This document shows, piece by piece, positions 43,086-51,038 of a DNA stretch of 64,000 nt. A model generated the notes under the pieces. The model was not told the origin of the DNA and searched no databases. It was given only the letters and a program-made list of their open reading frames with translations. Source of the DNA: Candidatus Cloacimonadota bacterium (GTDB taxonomy: Bacteria; Cloacimonadota; Cloacimonadia; Cloacimonadales; TCS61). The position numbers were made by a program, and so were the translations under genes. Where the stretch lies: positions 62,001 to 126,000 of the forward strand of contig JASUTE010000004.1 of assembly GCA_030445745.1 (NCBI GenBank), written 5' to 3'. Position 1 is the stretch's first letter; each line of letters starts with the position of its first letter.

Positions 43086-43652
43086 ATGAAAATAGTCAGA
43101 ACAGTTATGATCTTGGTGCTAGTATTGCTTTCTGTAGCAGCATTAGCCGAACTAAAAGGAAAGGATTTTGTGGAGAAGGGTGAACTGCAAGAATTTAGCG
43201 GAAACCTAATAAAGACTGATGAAGAGTGGTCTTTACAGACAGAAGAAGCCACTTTTGATTTGCATTTTGGCCCACAGGAATATCTGCAGAGCAAAGAAGT
43301 TGTGCTGCAAGAAGATACAGAAATAAATTTAACGGGCTATTTGTATAAAAAAAATATTGCCGTTGTTAAGTTTGTTTACTATGATGTTAATGTGGTTTTG
43401 CGAAGCGATAAAGGTGATCCACTTTGGCATGGCACAAAATATGCCAAAAAACATGATAAGCATTACGTGGATTCCAGCAAATGCATTGGCTGCAAACTTT
43501 GTGTTAGTGCCTGCCCCACAGGTGCTATTAGCATGAAAGATGGCAAAGCTGTTATCGATCCGGACAAATGTATAAACTGTGGTATTTGTATAAATGGAAA
43601 TGGTCAGGGGTTTTCCGGTTGTCCGGTAAAGGCTATAAACAAGAATGAATAA
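43086..43652 (+). CDS. Exported dicluster [4Fe-4S] ferredoxin protein with N-terminal domain
   Basis: 188 residues. A Sec signal peptide (TVMILVLVLLSVAALAE) is followed by about 95 residues of beta-rich sequence, perhaps an OB-like domain (FSGNLIKTDEEWSLQTEEAT). The ferredoxin domain has cluster I CIGCKLCVSACP and an unusual cluster II, CINCGIC, with the fourth Cys 10 residues later (SGCP). TCGGAGGA gives a strong ribosome site. It is first of the seven-gene ferredoxin operon and overlaps the next gene by 8 bp. Export of a Fe-S protein through a Sec-like signal is unusual. Confidence 0.85.
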   Translation: MKIVRTVMILVLVLLSVAALAELKGKDFVEKGELQEFSGNLIKTDEEWSLQTEEATFDLHFGPQEYLQSKEVVLQEDTEINLTGYLYKKNIAVVKFVYYDVNVVLRSDKGDPLWHGTKYAKKHDKHYVDSSKCIGCKLCVSACPTGAISMKDGKAVIDPDKCINCGICINGNGQGFSGCPVKAINKNE

Positions 43653-44433
43653 ACGAGATAAAATTCGTTTTTTTAGTCAGCTTTTTTTCCTAATAGTATC
43701 GTTAACGCTCTTAGTTTTGCTAATTTTAGGATTTCTAGGAGTATCGCACTCTTACTGTCCATTTGCCAGTGTTTGTTTTGGAATTCTGGGGCTTAGTCCT
43801 GCAGTTTCGGTTTGGTTGTTTAAAACAGCTGCTATTGTAGGAATTCTAATAGCTTTCAGTACGGTCTTTTGGGGAAGAAAGTTTTGCGGTTATATATGTT
43901 TCTTGGGCACACTTCAGGAATTTATTTACAATTTGAACTGCAGCCGGAAAAAGTATTGTCGGAAACTGTCTTATAAAACTCATTTAATTTTAAGAGTGTT
44001 AAAGTATCTGGTACTTATCTTTACAGCAGTGACTGCTTTCTTGGCTCTACAGTATCTATATATGAAATTTTGTCCAGTGTATGCATTAGCTCATCCCCAA
44101 AACATTAGCTTAGCAGCAGTATTTACTTTAATTGTGATATTTGTTTTGGGAGTGTGGGTCGAAAGATTTTGGTGCAGATATTTGTGCCCTTATGCAGCAT
44201 TGATGAATCTATTCCAATATATGGGTAAATTGCTGGGAATTAAAAGACAGAAAATTAGAAGAAATATTGAAGCAAGCGTGAATTGTAAAACTTGTTCAAA
44301 TTATTGTCCAATGGGCATAAAAATTGAATGTAAAGAGGAGATAAGTAATATTAACTGCATACATTGTGGTCGTTGTGTTAGAAAATGTTTGAAAGACAAT
44401 TTCTCTAAAGAACAGTGTTTATACAGAGATTAA
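43645..44433 (+). CDS. NapH/NosR-like membrane polyferredoxin
   Basis: 262 residues. Four to five membrane helices carry the family's paired cysteine motifs FCGYICFLGTLQE and FWCRYLCPYAALMN, followed by a soluble dicluster tail: CKTCSNYCP plus a fourth Cys in IECKEE, and CIHCGRCVRKC. NapH/NosR/CcoG-type proteins pass electrons across or along the inner membrane. Here it is the only polytopic inner-membrane member of the operon, so it is the likely electron entry point. The tail side (cytosol or periplasm) is not settled by sequence. Confidence 0.88.
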   Translation: MNKRDKIRFFSQLFFLIVSLTLLVLLILGFLGVSHSYCPFASVCFGILGLSPAVSVWLFKTAAIVGILIAFSTVFWGRKFCGYICFLGTLQEFIYNLNCSRKKYCRKLSYKTHLILRVLKYLVLIFTAVTAFLALQYLYMKFCPVYALAHPQNISLAAVFTLIVIFVLGVWVERFWCRYLCPYAALMNLFQYMGKLLGIKRQKIRRNIEASVNCKTCSNYCPMGIKIECKEEISNINCIHCGRCVRKCLKDNFSKEQCLYRD

Positions 44434-44436
44434 ATT

Positions 44437-45402
44437 ATGAAAAAGATACTCATATTTTTAGCGATTTTAAGTTTATTCGCTTGTGATGATTCTATTTCCA
44501 AGCTTAGTCTAGATAATACAGCTCCTAACCCGGTTTCTAATTTGCAAATATTAGAAACGGGAGGAGATTATGTGAAGTTGATATGGAGTGTACCAGATTC
44601 CAAAGATGCTGCTTTTTACAAAATTTATAAAAAATTAAGTACGGAAACAGAGACTATTACCAACTTTATTTTTACCGATCAACTTCAAGTTAACTTACAA
44701 AACACTCAGCAGGGTATAATTATAGACAGCTTAGCTTTCAGCAATAATTACGATTTTGCCGTTTCGGTGTGCGATGAAAGCATGAATGAGAGCGAATTAC
44801 AAAAAATAACAGGTATTGAAACGCTTAACAATAATCCTGTTGACACAACACCTCCAGGTGATATTGCACAGCTGCAGTTGGTACCTACATTTTCGGAAGG
44901 CTATGAGATAATTGACGTAGTTATAACAGCTTCTTTTGTTGCACCAGGCGATGATGGCGATAACGGTATAACCGAGATTGAAGTAAGATATTCACCATTT
45001 GGACCAGTTAATTCAGATAACTGGCAAACCGCTTTTCCTTATCAGGGTACAGTTTTTAGTGGTATTGCTGGAGAAACCACAATAATTGAACTTCCCTTGA
45101 AAAAATGTATGGCTCCCCCTCCCGTTCCACCCAATTATGCTTTTTATTTTGCTGCCAGAGCTATTGATGAAGCAGGAAATACTTCGGCTATCAAGAGTTT
45201 TTCTGGTAAAATAACCGCAGAAGTTATCCGTAAAAGCTGTATTTCTTGTTGGGAATGTTTAGATATTTGCCCGGAAAATGCTATCTCCAAACAAAACGGA
45301 AAGGCTTCTATCGATTTGAGCAAATGTGTGCGCTGTGGCGATTGTATTTTAACCTGTGAAGAAAAAGGTAATGAAGCAATAAAATATTATATAACAGAAT
45401 AA
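44437..45402 (+). CDS. Fibronectin-III-like lipoprotein with C-terminal ferredoxin domain
   Basis: 321 residues. Lipobox LAILSLFACDD. Two fibronectin-type-III-like domains follow: APNPVSNLQILETGGDYVKL with IYKK, and DTTPPGDIAQLQLVP with EVRYSPFGP and AARAIDEAGN. The C-terminal ~60 residues are a dicluster ferredoxin, CISCWECLDICP and CVRCGDCILTC. A membrane-anchored ferredoxin on a beta-sandwich stalk is an unusual fusion. It would place clusters in the periplasm or at the surface. Confidence 0.83.
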   Translation: MKKILIFLAILSLFACDDSISKLSLDNTAPNPVSNLQILETGGDYVKLIWSVPDSKDAAFYKIYKKLSTETETITNFIFTDQLQVNLQNTQQGIIIDSLAFSNNYDFAVSVCDESMNESELQKITGIETLNNNPVDTTPPGDIAQLQLVPTFSEGYEIIDVVITASFVAPGDDGDNGITEIEVRYSPFGPVNSDNWQTAFPYQGTVFSGIAGETTIIELPLKKCMAPPPVPPNYAFYFAARAIDEAGNTSAIKSFSGKITAEVIRKSCISCWECLDICPENAISKQNGKASIDLSKCVRCGDCILTCEEKGNEAIKYYITE

Positions 45403-45419
45403 AAGAGAGGTAGGAGAAG

Positions 45420-45959
45420 ATGAAAAAGAAAATAATTTACGCGATAATTTTGCTGTTTGTAATGGCCGTAACACTATATGCTGCTAGGGTTATCTATCAA
45501 ATAGACCCCGATCAGTGTAATGGTTGTGGTGAGTGTTTTGTACAATGTCCCAATGATGCTATCTATTATGATTATGAAGTATGGACTTATCAGATCAATC
45601 CAGAATTATGTGATGGTTGCGGAGATTGTGTAGATACTTGTAATCATAATGCTATTCATGAAGTTGTTAGCAATGGCAGTGAAGAGATCGATCCTAATTT
45701 AAAGATATCTTGTTTCCCCAATCCACTTAGCTCTAATACAACTATTTCTTATGATATGCACAACGGGCAAAAAGGAGAAATAGTTATCTTTAACATCAAA
45801 GGCAGAAAAATTCGTTCTTTTCCAATAGAAAGCCGTACTGGCCAGGTCAGCTGGGATGGAAAGGATAGAGCTGGCAATGAAGTTGCAGAAGGTATTTATT
45901 TCTATAAATTGAAAACCGGCAATAGAAAAGTGATAAAAAGACTAACTGTAATAAAATGA
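45420..45959 (+). CDS. Exported dicluster ferredoxin with C-terminal sorting domain
   Basis: 179 residues. Signal peptide IIYAIILLFVMAVTLYA. Clusters CNGCGECFVQCP and CDGCGDCVDTCN sit near 31-80. The C-terminal ~80 residues are a FlgD-like sorting domain (CFPNPLSSNTTISYD, IFNIKGRKIRSF, WDGKDRAGNEVAEGIYFYKL). This is related to the tails of the two propeller proteins at 15820 and 18224. The tail predicts transport to the cell surface. It overlaps the next gene by 4 bp. Confidence 0.85.
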   Translation: MKKKIIYAIILLFVMAVTLYAARVIYQIDPDQCNGCGECFVQCPNDAIYYDYEVWTYQINPELCDGCGDCVDTCNHNAIHEVVSNGSEEIDPNLKISCFPNPLSSNTTISYDMHNGQKGEIVIFNIKGRKIRSFPIESRTGQVSWDGKDRAGNEVAEGIYFYKLKTGNRKVIKRLTVIK

Positions 45960-46198
45960 AAAAAATTAATATAATTTTAGTTTTAGTGCTGCTGCTCATT
46001 ATTTCGTGTGCAGCAGCCTCTGCTGCTTATCGAGTAAATACAAACGACTGTGTAGGTTGTAATGATTGTGTTAAAGTGTGTCCTGTAAATGCGATCTCTA
46101 TCGAAGATGGAAAAGCTTATATAGACCAGGAGAAATGCATCAAATGTGGGTTGTGTTATAAAACCTGTACTTACGAAGTTATTAGGAAATCAAAATGA
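45956..46198 (+). CDS. Small exported dicluster ferredoxin
   Basis: 80 residues. The signal sequence IILVLVLLLIISCAAASAA fits either a lipobox (LIISC) or a signal peptidase I site (ASAA). The mature part is a minimal ferredoxin, CVGCNDCVKVCP and CIKCGLCYKTC. ATGA overlaps join it to both neighbours. It could shuttle electrons between the anchored ferredoxins. Confidence 0.87.
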   Translation: MKKINIILVLVLLLIISCAAASAAYRVNTNDCVGCNDCVKVCPVNAISIEDGKAYIDQEKCIKCGLCYKTCTYEVIRKSK

Positions 46199-46437
46199 GA
46201 AAAATTGCTATTCTATTCTTGCTAATTGTTCTGATAGCTGTTTGGGGTTGTGAAAAAGTTAGCAATCCCCAATATCATGTAGATAAAGAATCGTGTAATG
46301 CTTGCGGAGAATGTTTAATTGTATGTCCCGTAGACGCTATTGAATTCGACGCAGATGGTAAAGCTGTGATCGACCAAACCAAATGTAACCAATGTGGCAA
46401 ATGTATAAATGTTTGCCCTCAGGATGCGATATACTAA
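46195..46437 (+). CDS. Small ferredoxin lipoprotein
   Basis: 80 residues. The signal ends VLIAVWGCEK, a plausible lipobox. Mature clusters are CNACGECLIVCP and CNQCGKCINVCP, both fully canonical. It resembles the preceding gene, suggesting tandem duplication and divergence. The stop TAA shares its final A with the ATG of the outer-membrane gene. Confidence 0.87.
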   Translation: MRKIAILFLLIVLIAVWGCEKVSNPQYHVDKESCNACGECLIVCPVDAIEFDADGKAVIDQTKCNQCGKCINVCPQDAIY

Positions 46438-47633
46438 TGAAAAAATTGTTTTTATTGCTTATAGTTTTATATGCTGTAACCGTACAAGCTCAGCTATCCA
46501 GTTATACCGATATCAGTTTTCGCTATATTAATACCGATTCCAGTAGTGAATTTTTTACCGATCCCAATGATTCAGAGGTGAAAAAGGCTAGTGGCTACTC
46601 GGGTATGGATTGGGAATATCATCTTAACTACAAGTTCAACAAAAATTTATTTCTTACATGGAATAATCAGCTTTTTTATTCTGAAGTATCGTCAGAGTTA
46701 CGCAATTCCTTCCTATACGATAAAAGCCGCTTGAGTATAGGTTTTCGAAATTCTGTTCACAAACTTTCACTTTTTCTGAATAACAGGTTTTATGGAGATG
46801 ATGATACCACGATCTCGAATATTGCCGGCTTAGATACTTTGATTAAAAAAAGAGCCACCTTTGCTTATGGCTTAAACTATGAGCTGAATTTCGGGAAACT
46901 AGAATTTGCTACTTCCGGTTACTATAGAAATTTGCGCTACTTAGAATACACAACCAGTCAAAATGAATGGGAAAATGATCTCTACTTAGCTAGTAAGCTC
47001 GGTTACCAGATTATACCACACTGGCAAATTTTCACCAATTTCTACTATAAAGATGACCTAAACCAGGTGGATTGGTACGACCAGACTAAATGGGGGGCAG
47101 GAGTTGCCTACGAAAATAGATTTGACTTTTTCAACTCTGTAGAAGCAGTGGTGAATTATTTTCATAGCGAAACAGATGAGTTGCCCCAATATCAGAATGA
47201 CTATCTTTTCACCAAAGTTCGCTATTTCAAAAGATTTGGCACAACTTTCAGTAGCTTTATAACTTATATAAATCGTAGTACCTACAACACTTCCCAAGAA
47301 AAACTCTTGCGGATCTCTAATTTAATAAGACTGCAGGCAAAATATATTTATCAAGAAGGCAGAGCAGAATCTTCTTATCTACTGTTTTCCGGAAAATATA
47401 ATCCAGAGAATTCTGGCAGTAAGTTACGCTTGGGTGTGAACCAGCATTTATTTAAAGACCTCTATTTTGGTATAGCTGGTGAGTATGCACCAGACCTGTA
47501 CAATGGTTATGAAGGAGAATTCCGATATTTACTTAGCGGATTTCGCTATCTCTACCTGCGCTATCAACTGCGGGATTACCAGGATTTTGTTGGTACTCAG
47601 AAGATTCAGGCAGGCCTTTCTTACCAGTTTTAA
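46437..47633 (+). CDS. Outer-membrane beta-barrel protein
   Basis: 398 residues from ATG 46437 with signal peptide KKLFLLLIVLYAVTVQAQ. Alternating aromatic/polar strands run throughout (DISFRYINTDSS, WEYHLNYKFNKNLFLTWNNQ, YFGIAGEYAPD, FRYLYLRYQL), and the chain ends in YQF, the C-terminal phenylalanine of barrel proteins. No family name is recognised. The strand count suggests a porin-size barrel of about 16-20 strands. Placed last in the ferredoxin operon, it could be the outer-membrane sheath of an electron conduit. Confidence 0.82.
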   Translation: MKKLFLLLIVLYAVTVQAQLSSYTDISFRYINTDSSSEFFTDPNDSEVKKASGYSGMDWEYHLNYKFNKNLFLTWNNQLFYSEVSSELRNSFLYDKSRLSIGFRNSVHKLSLFLNNRFYGDDDTTISNIAGLDTLIKKRATFAYGLNYELNFGKLEFATSGYYRNLRYLEYTTSQNEWENDLYLASKLGYQIIPHWQIFTNFYYKDDLNQVDWYDQTKWGAGVAYENRFDFFNSVEAVVNYFHSETDELPQYQNDYLFTKVRYFKRFGTTFSSFITYINRSTYNTSQEKLLRISNLIRLQAKYIYQEGRAESSYLLFSGKYNPENSGSKLRLGVNQHLFKDLYFGIAGEYAPDLYNGYEGEFRYLLSGFRYLYLRYQLRDYQDFVGTQKIQAGLSYQF

Positions 47634-47638
47634 TTTAA

Positions 47639-47657
47639 TTTGAGAATCATTCGCAAA
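47639..47657 (+). promoter_or_regulatory. Fur-box-like palindrome upstream of fur
   Basis: TTTGAGAATCATTCGCAAA is an interrupted palindrome (TTTGnGAATnATTCnCAAA) of Fur-box length, 6 bp after the barrel gene stop. TTGACA (47665-47670) follows 7 bp later and is likely the -35 of the fur promoter, so this box would act in autoregulation. Related sequences lie before feoB and feoA. Confidence 0.7.
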
Positions 47658-47708: not shown

Positions 47709-48137
47709 ATGAAAAAAGAAGAAGCTATTTTTCGTGATTTTTTGAAAACAAAGGGGCTAAAATTAACTAAACCCCGTCGCATTATCCTGAATGCGGTCTT
47801 CAGCACACACGAGCATTTTAATGTGGATGCACTTTACGATATTATCCGTAAAAGACATAAAAATGTATCGCGGGCAACCATCTACAGAACTATGCCGCTT
47901 ATGATAGAAGCAGGTCTTATAAAACAAGCTTTACGATGTCAGGCAAAAGACCACTACGAACATATTTTTGGCCATAAAAGTCATCTACATTTTATCTGCG
48001 ATAAATGTGGAAAAATAGTTGAAAAAGAGAGTAAACAAGTTGAAAAAATAATAAAAGATCTAGCAGAAACTGAAGGATTTGAAATACGTGAATTCAATGT
48101 TGGTGCTAAAGGTTTGTGTGCAGATTGCCGCAGTTAA
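47709..48137 (+). CDS. fur: Fur-family metal-responsive regulator
   Basis: 142 residues. Winged helix KLTKPRRIILNAVFSTHEHF and VSRATIYRTMPLMIEAGLI, then the metal-binding dimerisation half with DHYEHIFGHKSHLHFICDKC and CADC. The CxxC pairs bind structural Zn. Its position before feoB-feoA-feoC and the three similar boxes indicate iron-responsive repression. PerR or Zur specificity cannot be fully excluded by eye. Confidence 0.92.
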   Translation: MKKEEAIFRDFLKTKGLKLTKPRRIILNAVFSTHEHFNVDALYDIIRKRHKNVSRATIYRTMPLMIEAGLIKQALRCQAKDHYEHIFGHKSHLHFICDKCGKIVEKESKQVEKIIKDLAETEGFEIREFNVGAKGLCADCRS

Positions 48138-48151
48138 AAATTTAGACTGTA

Positions 48152-48170
48152 TCTGAGAATGAATTGCAAA
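48152..48170 (+). promoter_or_regulatory. Fur-box-like site upstream of feoB
   Basis: TCTGAGAATGAATTGCAAA, matching the box before fur at 15 of 19 positions and the box before feoA at 17 of 19. It lies 22 bp before the feoB start in a 55-bp gap. Confidence 0.65.
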
Positions 48171-48192: not shown

Positions 48193-50430
48193 TTGAAAAA
48201 ATATACAATAGCATTAGCAGGAAATCCCAATTGTGGTAAAACTACCCTGTTCAACGCTTTTACCGGTTCCAAACAAAGGGTAGGCAACTGGCCAGGTGTA
48301 ACTGTAGAAAAAATTATCGGTAACTATAAATATAAAGATGCTGAATATGAAATTATCGACTTGCCTGGAATATATTCCTTTTCAGCACATTCGATGGACG
48401 AAACAGTATCCCGAGAGTTTATCTTGATGGAGAAACCAGACTTAGTAGTGAACATTATAGATGCTACTAACCTGGAAAGAACACTCTATCTTACTACCCA
48501 GCTTCTGGAAATGAAGATTCCAGTTATTATCGCGCTGAATATGATGGATATGGCTAAACAGCGGCGGATAAAGATAGAGCTGGATCATTTAGCCAAGCAC
48601 CTTGATACAAAAATAATATCTATTGTAGCACCCAAAAAACAAGGTCTGGATGAATTAAAACAACAAATTGCTGAAAGTGTAGAAAAACAACATATTCCTC
48701 ATACCCAGGTGGAATACGATTCCGTGGTAGAAACAGCTATAAATGAGATAGCTCCGCAGTTAGATAAATATGCCAAAAAATATCAAGTAGATAAACGCTG
48801 GCTAGCTATCAAACTGTTGGAAGAGGACAAGTTAGCTGCTCAGCTTACCAATTCCGACTTAGCAGATCTAGTAAATCAGCAGATCCAGAAAATAGAAAAA
48901 CATACTAATAACGATGTGGAAATTGTAATTGCAGATGGACGCTATGGTTTTATTCATGGATTAACTTTGGATGTGGTTCATAAAGCTGGTGATGCTCGGC
49001 GTAATTTTTCCGATCTGGTAGATAGTATCGTATTAAATCGTGTTTTGAGCATTCCCATATTTTTGGGAGTGATGTATCTGGTATTTATGCTAACAATAAA
49101 TGTGGGTTCTCCCTTCATAGATTTTTTTGATAATTTAATGGGCACTATTTTTGTGGATGGTACAGAGTACTTTTTACAAAGTCTTAATGCTCCAGCATGG
49201 CTTATTTTACTACTGGCACAAGCTTTAGGAGGTAGCATTCAAACAATTTCCACCTTTATTCCTCCTATTTTCTTTATGTTTCTATCGCTTTCCATTTTAG
49301 AAGATTCGGGTTATATGAGCAGGGCTGCTTTTGTGATGGACAGGTTTATGCGCTTCATTGGCCTCCCGGGAAAAGCATTTATTCCAATGTTGGTGGGTTT
49401 CGGTTGCAATGTTCCAGCAATAATGGCAACCAGGACACTGGAAAATAAAAAAGATAGACTCTTAACTATTCTAATTAACCCATTAATGTCCTGCGGTGCC
49501 AGATTACCTGTTTATACACTTTTCGCAGCAGTATTTTTCCCTGAACATGGAGGACAGGTAATTTTTGCACTCTATCTCACTGGTATTGTCTTAGCTATAA
49601 TATTCGGGCTAATTTTCAAGAAAACTCTTTTCAAAGGCGAAACTTCTACATTTGTTATGGAACTATCACCTTATCACCTACCAACTTTCAACGGAATTAT
49701 GTTACATACCTGGCAACGTCTGAAAGGTTTTATCATCAGAGCTGGGAAAGTAATCGTAATTTTTATAATTATATTAACTGTGTTAAATTCGGTGGGAATA
49801 GATGGAAGTTTGGGCAATCAGGATTCAGAGAATTCTGTGTTAAGCTACATTGGGAAAAAGATTAGTCCGATTTTCCAACCAATGGGAGTACAGCAGAAAA
49901 ATTGGCCAGCAGTAGTTGGTATGATGACGGGTATTTTTGCTAAAGAAACAGTGGTAGGAACGCTGGATGCACTTTATTCGCAACTGGCTGGAGCTCAGCA
50001 GCAAGTAGAAGAAGAAACCGGTTACGATTTTACCTCGGGTATAGTTGCTTCTTTTCGGGCTATAGCTACTGGATTTGGTATAATAGAAGCTAAAGATGGA
50101 GAAACTACTCTACAAAAGGGTGTTACCAGAGAAATGATGAACAGATTTGGTGGAAAGAATAATGCTTTTGCCTATCTGCTATTTATACTTATTTATGCTC
50201 CCTGTGTGGCTGTAATCGGCGCTATTTACAAGGAAACAAACCTGAAATGGACATTTTTTTCTGTTTCCTATTTAACCATGTTGGCATGGTTGGTAGCCAC
50301 TTTGTTTTACCAAGTTTCGATAATTGCGATACAACCTGCTGTAAGTTTGGGTTGGATTCTGGGAATTAGCTTGATTTTCTTTGGATTCTATAAAACACTA
50401 CAAAAGATAAAACCAGGTGAAACTTTTTGA
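48193..50430 (+). CDS. feoB: Ferrous iron transporter FeoB
   Basis: 745 residues. Cytosolic G domain with P-loop AGNPNCGKTTLFNA, DLPGIYSFS and NMMD. The membrane domain has two Gate motifs, including MLVGFGCNVPAIMATRTL and FAKETVVGTLDALY. The start is TTG 48193 with GAGAGG spaced 6 nt, and no better ATG lies upstream. It imports Fe2+ under anaerobic conditions. The feoA gene follows after a Fur box. Confidence 0.96.
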   Translation: MKKYTIALAGNPNCGKTTLFNAFTGSKQRVGNWPGVTVEKIIGNYKYKDAEYEIIDLPGIYSFSAHSMDETVSREFILMEKPDLVVNIIDATNLERTLYLTTQLLEMKIPVIIALNMMDMAKQRRIKIELDHLAKHLDTKIISIVAPKKQGLDELKQQIAESVEKQHIPHTQVEYDSVVETAINEIAPQLDKYAKKYQVDKRWLAIKLLEEDKLAAQLTNSDLADLVNQQIQKIEKHTNNDVEIVIADGRYGFIHGLTLDVVHKAGDARRNFSDLVDSIVLNRVLSIPIFLGVMYLVFMLTINVGSPFIDFFDNLMGTIFVDGTEYFLQSLNAPAWLILLLAQALGGSIQTISTFIPPIFFMFLSLSILEDSGYMSRAAFVMDRFMRFIGLPGKAFIPMLVGFGCNVPAIMATRTLENKKDRLLTILINPLMSCGARLPVYTLFAAVFFPEHGGQVIFALYLTGIVLAIIFGLIFKKTLFKGETSTFVMELSPYHLPTFNGIMLHTWQRLKGFIIRAGKVIVIFIIILTVLNSVGIDGSLGNQDSENSVLSYIGKKISPIFQPMGVQQKNWPAVVGMMTGIFAKETVVGTLDALYSQLAGAQQQVEEETGYDFTSGIVASFRAIATGFGIIEAKDGETTLQKGVTREMMNRFGGKNNAFAYLLFILIYAPCVAVIGAIYKETNLKWTFFSVSYLTMLAWLVATLFYQVSIIAIQPAVSLGWILGISLIFFGFYKTLQKIKPGETF

Positions 50431-50444
50431 GAATGATTTGCAAA
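50426..50444 (+). promoter_or_regulatory. Fur-box-like site between feoB and feoA
   Basis: TTTGAGAATGATTTGCAAA, overlapping the last bases of feoB. It differs from the box before fur at two positions. Its presence inside the feo cluster suggests a separate iron-regulated promoter for feoA-feoC. Confidence 0.65.
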
Positions 50445-50486
50445 AAATCTAAAAATAAATAGTTTTTAAAATAAAAAGGATAAAAA

Positions 50487-50780
50487 TTGTTTGGAAGAAA
50501 AAAAAGACGAAGAGCTAAAGGGAAACGTTGTAAAAATCATCCGCAGTGCAACCGTGGGAGCAATAATAATAGATTTTTAAATCTGTGTGAAGCCGAAGTT
50601 GGTAGAAAATATGTGGTAGTGGATAATCCAGATCACAAAATAATGGAGATGGGTGTTTTTAATGGCTGTGTTATCACTGTACACAAAAATAACCCAAGTG
50701 ATAGTAATATAATTATAGCGGTAGGTGAATCTCGGTTCATAATTCCCAAGCCAACTGCTTGCCGCATTTTGATACGCTAA
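50487..50780 (+). CDS. feoA: FeoA-domain protein with basic N-terminal extension
   Basis: 97 residues, starting at TTG 50487 after AAAAGGA. The C-terminal ~72 residues match the SH3-like FeoA fold (LCEAEVGRKYVVVD, MEMGVFNGCVITVH, GESRFIIPKPTACRILI). The first 25 residues are Lys/Arg-rich with two Cys and a His (RCKNHPQCNRG), an addition I do not recognise. FeoA assists FeoB. The stop is one base before the next start. Confidence 0.87.
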   Translation: MFGRKKRRRAKGKRCKNHPQCNRGSNNNRFLNLCEAEVGRKYVVVDNPDHKIMEMGVFNGCVITVHKNNPSDSNIIIAVGESRFIIPKPTACRILIR

Positions 50781-50781
50781 A

Positions 50782-51006
50782 ATGCTCTCGGAAATTATAG
50801 AATATTTTCACCAAAAAAAAGTATTAAGTATTTCAGAAATAGCTACTTGGTTAAATTCTAACGAAGAAGCAGTAGAGGGAATGTTGCAAATACTGTTGCG
50901 TAAGAAAATGATAAAGCCGTGGAGACCTGCGTGTAAAAGCTGTAGCTCCTCCTGTGCTTCCTGTAATTTGGTGAAAACAAAATATTACCAGTGGATTTCT
51001 GCTTGA
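50782..51006 (+). CDS. FeoC-like winged-helix protein with Cys cluster
   Basis: 74 residues. A small winged helix (VLSISEIATWLNSNEEAVEG, LLRKKMIKPW) is followed by CKSCSSSCASC, a four-Cys patch as in FeoC proteins that bind a [4Fe-4S] cluster and regulate FeoB stability or transcription. It directly follows feoA. Confidence 0.82.
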   Translation: MLSEIIEYFHQKKVLSISEIATWLNSNEEAVEGMLQILLRKKMIKPWRPACKSCSSSCASCNLVKTKYYQWISA

Positions 51007-51038
51007 CTAAAGCTTGCCACAATAAGTAAAAAGTTCTT

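Follow-up and report, generated by a model that had tools for sequence, protein, structure and literature searches.

What would a bacterium do with five exported ferredoxins, encoded in a row with a membrane iron–sulphur (Fe-S) protein and an outer-membrane barrel? The question is raised by positions 43086-47633 of a 64,000-nucleotide (nt) window, the whole stretch of DNA that we analysed, from a Candidatus Cloacimonadota genome (2.04 Mb, 99.3% complete). Seven plus-strand genes form a tight operon here. We consider it fairly probable that they encode a haem-free electron conduit, which runs through the whole cell envelope and exports low-potential electrons. In order, the genes are as follows (aa, amino acids):

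43086..43652, plus strand: F1, an exported ferredoxin of 188 aa with a signal peptide, an N-terminal OB-like domain and a C-terminal dicluster [4Fe-4S] domain (Fer4, 57.7 bits)
43645..44433, plus strand: NapH-like inner-membrane iron–sulphur protein of 262 aa with the conserved motifs HxxCP-x4-C, GRxFCGxxC and RxWCRxxCP and, at its C-terminus, a dicluster ferredoxin domain
44437..45402, plus strand: F3, a lipoprotein of 321 aa with an FN3-like body, a C-terminal dicluster ferredoxin domain (Fer4_21, 38.5 bits) and the lipobox LFAC at residues 13-16
45420..45959, plus strand: F4, an exported ferredoxin of 179 aa whose dicluster domain (Fer4, 51.9 bits) precedes a C-terminal sorting domain for type IX secretion
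45956..46198, plus strand: F5, a small exported dicluster ferredoxin of 80 aa without a lipobox (Fer4, 57.3 bits)
46195..46437, plus strand: F6, a small dicluster ferredoxin lipoprotein of 80 aa (Fer4, 61.5 bits), immediately 5' of the barrel gene
46437..47633, plus strand: outer-membrane barrel of 398 aa with a signal peptide, 20 predicted strands and no plug domain

F1 and the NapH-like gene overlap by 8 bp; the next two junctions are gaps of 3 and 17 bp, and the last three are overlaps of 4, 4 and 1 bp. Scans for promoters and terminators gave results at chance level. The original prediction had described seven genes with overlaps or gaps of at most 17 bp, encoding five exported or lipidated dicluster [4Fe-4S] proteins, a NapH-like membrane protein and, last, a β-barrel, and had noticed no CxxCH haem motif. 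This description is borne out by the coordinates of the open reading frames (ORFs), by the export signals and Fer4 matches, by the matches of the second gene to Fer4_5 and NapH models, by the high-confidence prediction of a signal peptide and a 20-strand barrel for the last gene, and by a motif count, which found CxxCH zero times in the seven proteins.

F1, F3, F4, F5 and F6 each contain two C-x2-C-x2-C motifs, match dicluster Fer4 families well over the cut-off and begin with a hydrophobic export signal. In F3 (FAC-D) and F6 (WGC-E), a lipobox-type Cys stands at the end of this signal. The F6 Cys is kept in clear orthologues across the phylum, and inspection of the sequences showed lipobox-type residues before it in most of them. 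F3 has weak fn3 and DUF4959 matches in Pfam. The sorting tail of F4, which the original prediction did not mention, scores 41.6 bits with TIGR04183 (cut-off 23) and 39.1 with PF18962 (cut-off 27). As the translocon protein SprA of type IX secretion is also encoded in the host genome, F4 has the attributes of type IX secretion cargo and is predicted to be a cell-surface ferredoxin. Its combination of ferredoxin and sorting tail recurs in two other loci (L113 and L164). The AlphaFold2 model of F1 (pLDDT 90) combines a five-strand OB-like domain with a clostridial-type ferredoxin fold. In several F1 orthologues, Asp replaces the second Cys of the second cluster (alignment A4); for example, those at L074 7869-8399, L076 8358-8900 and L072 2717-3247 read CDGD instead of CxxC at this cluster. 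Judging by sequence, such orthologues may bind a [3Fe-4S] or an Asp-ligated cluster.

We determined how widespread this gene set is by searching 124 genomes of the phylum and, for the barrel profile, 386 genomes. Barrel family members were identified in 45 of the 386; as far as listed, all belong to Cloacimonadota and none lies outside the phylum. Where the barrel was clear, 36 of 41 loci had, on the barrel's own strand, a ferredoxin gene among the three genes that precede it. In four of the five exceptions the locus runs off its contig; in the last (L110), reading all frames reveals F5 and F6 ahead of the barrel. Barrels from different families are only ~16-20% identical to the one at 46437..47633, yet their linkage to ferredoxins is kept. 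In most intact loci, in Fibrobacterota as well, F6 is the gene immediately before the barrel, and F5 directly precedes F6 in most barrel loci. Many loci place an FN3 ferredoxin orthologue of F3 between F1 and F5; the F3 orthologues range from 200 to 1400 aa. The ferredoxin-barrel cluster recurs across numerous Cloacimonadota genera and families and is a conserved system. A check for co-occurrence as a conserved cluster, proposed with the original prediction, thus gave a positive answer that extends to Fibrobacterota.

Downstream of the barrel, 29 loci encode a DsbD-like membrane protein of ~330 aa. It matches DsbD_2 (PF13386) with 72-74 bits, against a cut-off of 24.9, and four of its cysteines (C19, C23, C104 and C128) do not vary among 23 sequences. 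Its size had suggested ApbE, an assignment ruled out by the DsbD_2 match. Some DsbD_2 relatives in Cloacimonadota (L205, L206, L207 and L208) occur without ferredoxin or barrel genes; the one in L205 adjoins M42 peptidase and ABC transporter genes, and the neighbours in L206-L208 are similar in size. Together with L210/L251, L212, L245 and L246, these relatives were excluded from the counts, as they have no ferredoxin-barrel neighbours.

The DsbD-like protein also led to a counterpart outside Cloacimonadota. When 84,980 species genomes were scanned with its profile, the named relatives were almost all Candidatus Cloacimonadota, and further ones came from Fibrobacterota (L209, L213), where nine of 167 genomes encode the protein. 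Four of these loci (L241, L243, L248 and L250) contain one or more exported ferredoxins, an FN3-type lipoprotein, F5-like and F6-like genes, a barrel of 414-463 aa and the DsbD-like gene, while a fifth (L247) contains the F6-like, barrel and DsbD-like genes. A NapH-like polyferredoxin of 502-525 aa comes next in L241, L243, L247 and L248. The gene order F5-F6-barrel-DsbD is therefore common to both phyla, and the barrel profiles of the two are homologous (hhalign Prob 97.4, E 1.6e-11). The F5 counterparts in L243 and L248 have a Tat-like twin-arginine (RR) signal. In another Fibrobacterota relative (L249, identical to L211, 650-4506), the N-terminus of the barrel and the FN3 lipoprotein carry DAxSSA(T/S) motifs, which we take to be flavinylation-like; this locus is possibly a flavin-ferredoxin hybrid.

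The barrel itself has no match in Pfam, NCBIfam or the PDB sequences. We modelled it with AlphaFold2 using 27 homologues (pLDDT 90.1, pTM 0.80). The model comprises a signal helix and, from residue 19, 20 strands without a plug. The barrel of the original prediction thus holds, as a wide plugless pore. The top solved structural matches are the barrels of TonB-dependent receptors (BtuB, Cir, FhuA and FusA), which resemble it in fold and calibre (Z ~15-18.5) and differ from it in having a plug, in strand number (22 rather than 20) and in sequence (~8% identity). The alignments start at about residue 135-160 of the receptors, that is, past their plug, and a Pfam search of the operon barrel gave no match to Plug or TonB_dep_Rec. 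No MtrB-type barrel was among the structural matches listed (Foldseek, VIA), which is no proof that a relation is lacking. The likeness to these receptors, FusA included, would suit a barrel that takes up iron or ferredoxin as FusA does, with the exported ferredoxins serving as bait or storage. We regard such import as highly improbable, given that the barrel model is plugless, that the operon contains neither a TonB nor a protease gene, and that the ferredoxins are encoded together with the barrel, one of them with a surface-sorting tail. For a conduit, the dimension of interest is the free lumen, estimated from strand number at ~25-28 Å versus ~25 Å for mature F6. In the model, one small ferredoxin could possibly fit the lumen.

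The outer-membrane electron conduits known so far depend on multihaem cytochromes, and the MtrB barrel has 26 strands. The operon resembles porin-cytochrome conduits (MtrCAB, PioAB and relatives) in combining an inner-membrane donor, periplasmic carriers, a surface redox lipoprotein and an outer-membrane barrel that is encoded alongside the carriers. Unlike in these conduits, the carriers are dicluster ferredoxins without a multihaem protein or any haem motif, the predicted barrel has 20 strands rather than the number found in MtrB, and we found no sequence relation. The layout is conduit-like, but as the haem signature is lacking and none of the parts showed a relation to such conduits, we consider this a categorically new system, with moderate confidence in its function. 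The cytochrome c assembly protein PF01578 was detected in one of the 124 phylum genomes, in none of the 70 high-quality ones and not in the host, compared with nine of 14 control genomes. The sole match (G097:C124:8378-9103) comes from a genome that is 86% complete, where contamination is possible. Since PF01578 is almost absent, the phylum seems unable to build multihaem conduits. This lends support to the earlier proposal that ferredoxins here replace multihaem cytochromes, although electron transfer, its direction and its acceptor are what we infer. In the open-licence literature we found no description of an exported, periplasmic, surface or outer-membrane ferredoxin conduit, which is not proof of absence; the original prediction likewise knew of none.

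Flavins provide another known route for extracellular electron transfer. None of the seven proteins matched FMN_bind (Pfam, at E 1), as flavinylated NapH-like or FLEET systems would, and the sole ApbE match in the host genome is on another contig, outside the operon cluster. The operon shares a membrane donor, exported redox proteins and, in some clusters, a DsbD-type protein with flavin-based extracellular electron transfer and with DUF3570/DsbD flavin systems (PMC8238504). It differs from them in using Fe-S instead of flavin, in having DsbD_2 (PF13386) rather than PF02683, and in its barrel. Readings of the operon as an ApbE, a flavin or a purely type IX secretion system were also tested and did not fit it. 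More tentatively, with confidence a little short of even, we propose that the operon represents a third class of outer-membrane conduit, free of haem and flavin. Small Sec-exported ferredoxins in a plugless barrel would wire fermentative ferredoxin to the outside in phyla without cytochrome c, their clusters being assembled outside the cytosol.

We next turn to the source of the electrons. The NapH-like protein matches Fer4_5 (PF12801) in two stretches with 49.7 bits (cut-off 22), which places it in the NapH-like superfamily, and remains under the curated NapH cut-offs (TIGR02163, 66.6 of 213 bits; NF007013, 52.7 of 234 bits). It has invariant Cys residues (alignment A3). As in NapGH and NapH-like extracytosolic systems (PMC8238504), a NapH-like membrane Fe-S protein would pass electrons to exported carriers. 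Unlike those systems, the operon has no FMN-binding or ApbE partner, its NapH-like protein scores far under the NapH cut-off, and its carriers extend to an outer-membrane barrel. NapH-like matches occur in 87 of the 124 phylum genomes (78 strong). Strong matches are present in 34 of the 42 barrel genomes, an association with the 78 NapH genomes that has a Fisher p of 0.003, not corrected for kinship. F1 orthologues adjoin the NapH-like gene in most mapped loci, making F1 the usual NapH partner. Six loci from another family have NapH and F1 behind the alpha-gamma and beta genes of a 2-oxoacid:ferredoxin oxidoreductase (POR/KOR), apparently in one operon, and in five of these the beta gene overlaps NapH or ends within 4 bp of it. 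This arrangement points to cytosolic ferredoxin as the donor. The host genome has no match to the MqnA/D family, so this route offers no support for a quinol donor. At L163 1016-6527 and L165 5696-11208 (genomes G046 and G047), F1 and barrel genes come after genes for a molybdopterin xanthine-dehydrogenase-type subunit and an Fe-S flavoprotein oxidoreductase. The neighbour domains were tested in L163, while those in L165 were assigned by size and one ferredoxin match. These oxidoreductase genes are possibly a different electron source.

A conduit made of such parts could also operate in reverse, so that FeS minerals or partner cells supply the electrons that reduce cytosolic ferredoxin. The parts are symmetric in direction, and ferredoxin-type potentials would suit low-potential donors. 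Moreover, KOR, encoded with NapH and F1 in the six loci, is proposed to run reductively in the phylum, for which a transmembrane KOR is also proposed (PMC13082233). On the other hand, the 2-oxoacid:ferredoxin oxidoreductases beside NapH and F1, though reversible, are better known for reducing ferredoxin in fermentation, and we deem electron uptake improbable.

For outward transfer, we suggest the following path. Cytosolic low-potential ferredoxin, reduced for instance by 2-oxoacid:ferredoxin oxidoreductase, would donate to the NapH-like protein at its C-terminal dicluster domain, and the conserved cysteine-ligated centres of this protein would carry the electrons across the inner membrane. F1 would accept them on the periplasmic side, and the small ferredoxins would relay them. 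The F6 lipoprotein and F5 would dock inside the plugless 20-strand barrel or beneath it, the two clusters of F6 bridging the outer membrane. At the surface, F3, the FN3 lipoprotein, and F4, secreted by the type IX system, would take up the electrons and pass them to an extracellular acceptor, which may be a mineral, a humic substance or a partner cell. The DsbD-like protein of most relatives probably keeps the cysteines of the exported ferredoxins reduced.

If this is true, an all-[4Fe-4S] conduit would explain how cytochrome-free fermenters and syntrophs export electrons. A recent study (2026) found no evident ferredoxin-dependent hydrogenase in Cloacimonadota and suspected direct interspecies electron transfer, naming no hardware for it other than pili (PMC13082233); the conduit would be a molecular candidate for that transfer. 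Extracellular electron transfer would also extend to lineages that screens for CxxCH motifs now rate as incapable of it. Finally, the conduit raises the biochemical question of how Sec-exported proteins obtain their [4Fe-4S] clusters.

Several results weigh against a conduit. All five ferredoxin signals resemble Sec signals, and a search of the host genome found no TatC, so cluster insertion would have to occur outside the cytosol, without a known assembly machine there. Spontaneous assembly in anoxic, sulphidic surroundings is our guess. The fit between the modelled barrel and a ferredoxin is a size estimate only, and the host genome lacks the DsbD-like partner. The NapH-F1 pair occurs without a barrel in many genomes, showing that it can serve other acceptors, and the iron genes next to the operon, described below, suit a role in iron acquisition. 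The frequency of NapH-F1 without a barrel fits an alternative in which NapH, F1 and the small ferredoxins only feed periplasmic or surface reductases or stress defence, the barrel being either a common channel or a device through which ferredoxin lipoproteins are threaded for display. NapH-like proteins do serve varied oxidoreductases elsewhere (PMC8238504). However, the F5-F6-barrel linkage is tighter than that between NapH and barrel and spans two phyla, and the set is not accompanied by a reductase gene; we find such a periplasmic supply quite unlikely.

The main rival is suggested by the genes that directly follow the operon:

47709-48137: fur, directly after the operon
48193-50430: feoB, after fur
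47641-47655, 48154-48168 and 50428-50442: Fur-box-like sites TGAGAATNATTYGCA, located before fur, before feoB and at the end of feoB, respectively

With up to three mismatches, the 64,000-nt window contains seven Fur-box-like matches versus 2.5 expected, a number reached in 3 of 100 shuffles. NapH directly precedes Fur-FeoB in two further genomes (G070 and G071) too. From this neighbourhood, the operon could be an assimilatory ferric reductase, in which the same electron path would reduce surface or periplasmic Fe(III) for import of Fe(II) by FeoB, its purpose being iron supply rather than respiration or syntrophy. Against this, no Fur-box-like site was found before the ferredoxin operon, and the cluster is not adjacent to Fur-FeoB in the other mapped loci. 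The order M23 peptidase-NapH-Fur is common to G070 and G071, where it may reflect an inherited position only. We therefore judge iron supply unlikely and continue to favour electron export through the envelope. An earlier hint at iron limitation fares accordingly: it fits only close relatives with an adjacent Fur-FeoB, and it is not matched by a site in front of the operon. Past feoB, two small ORFs at 50484-51010 resemble FeoA and, with a CxxC-rich tail, FeoC; if these names, given by eye, are right, a fur-feoB-feoA-feoC module would follow the operon.

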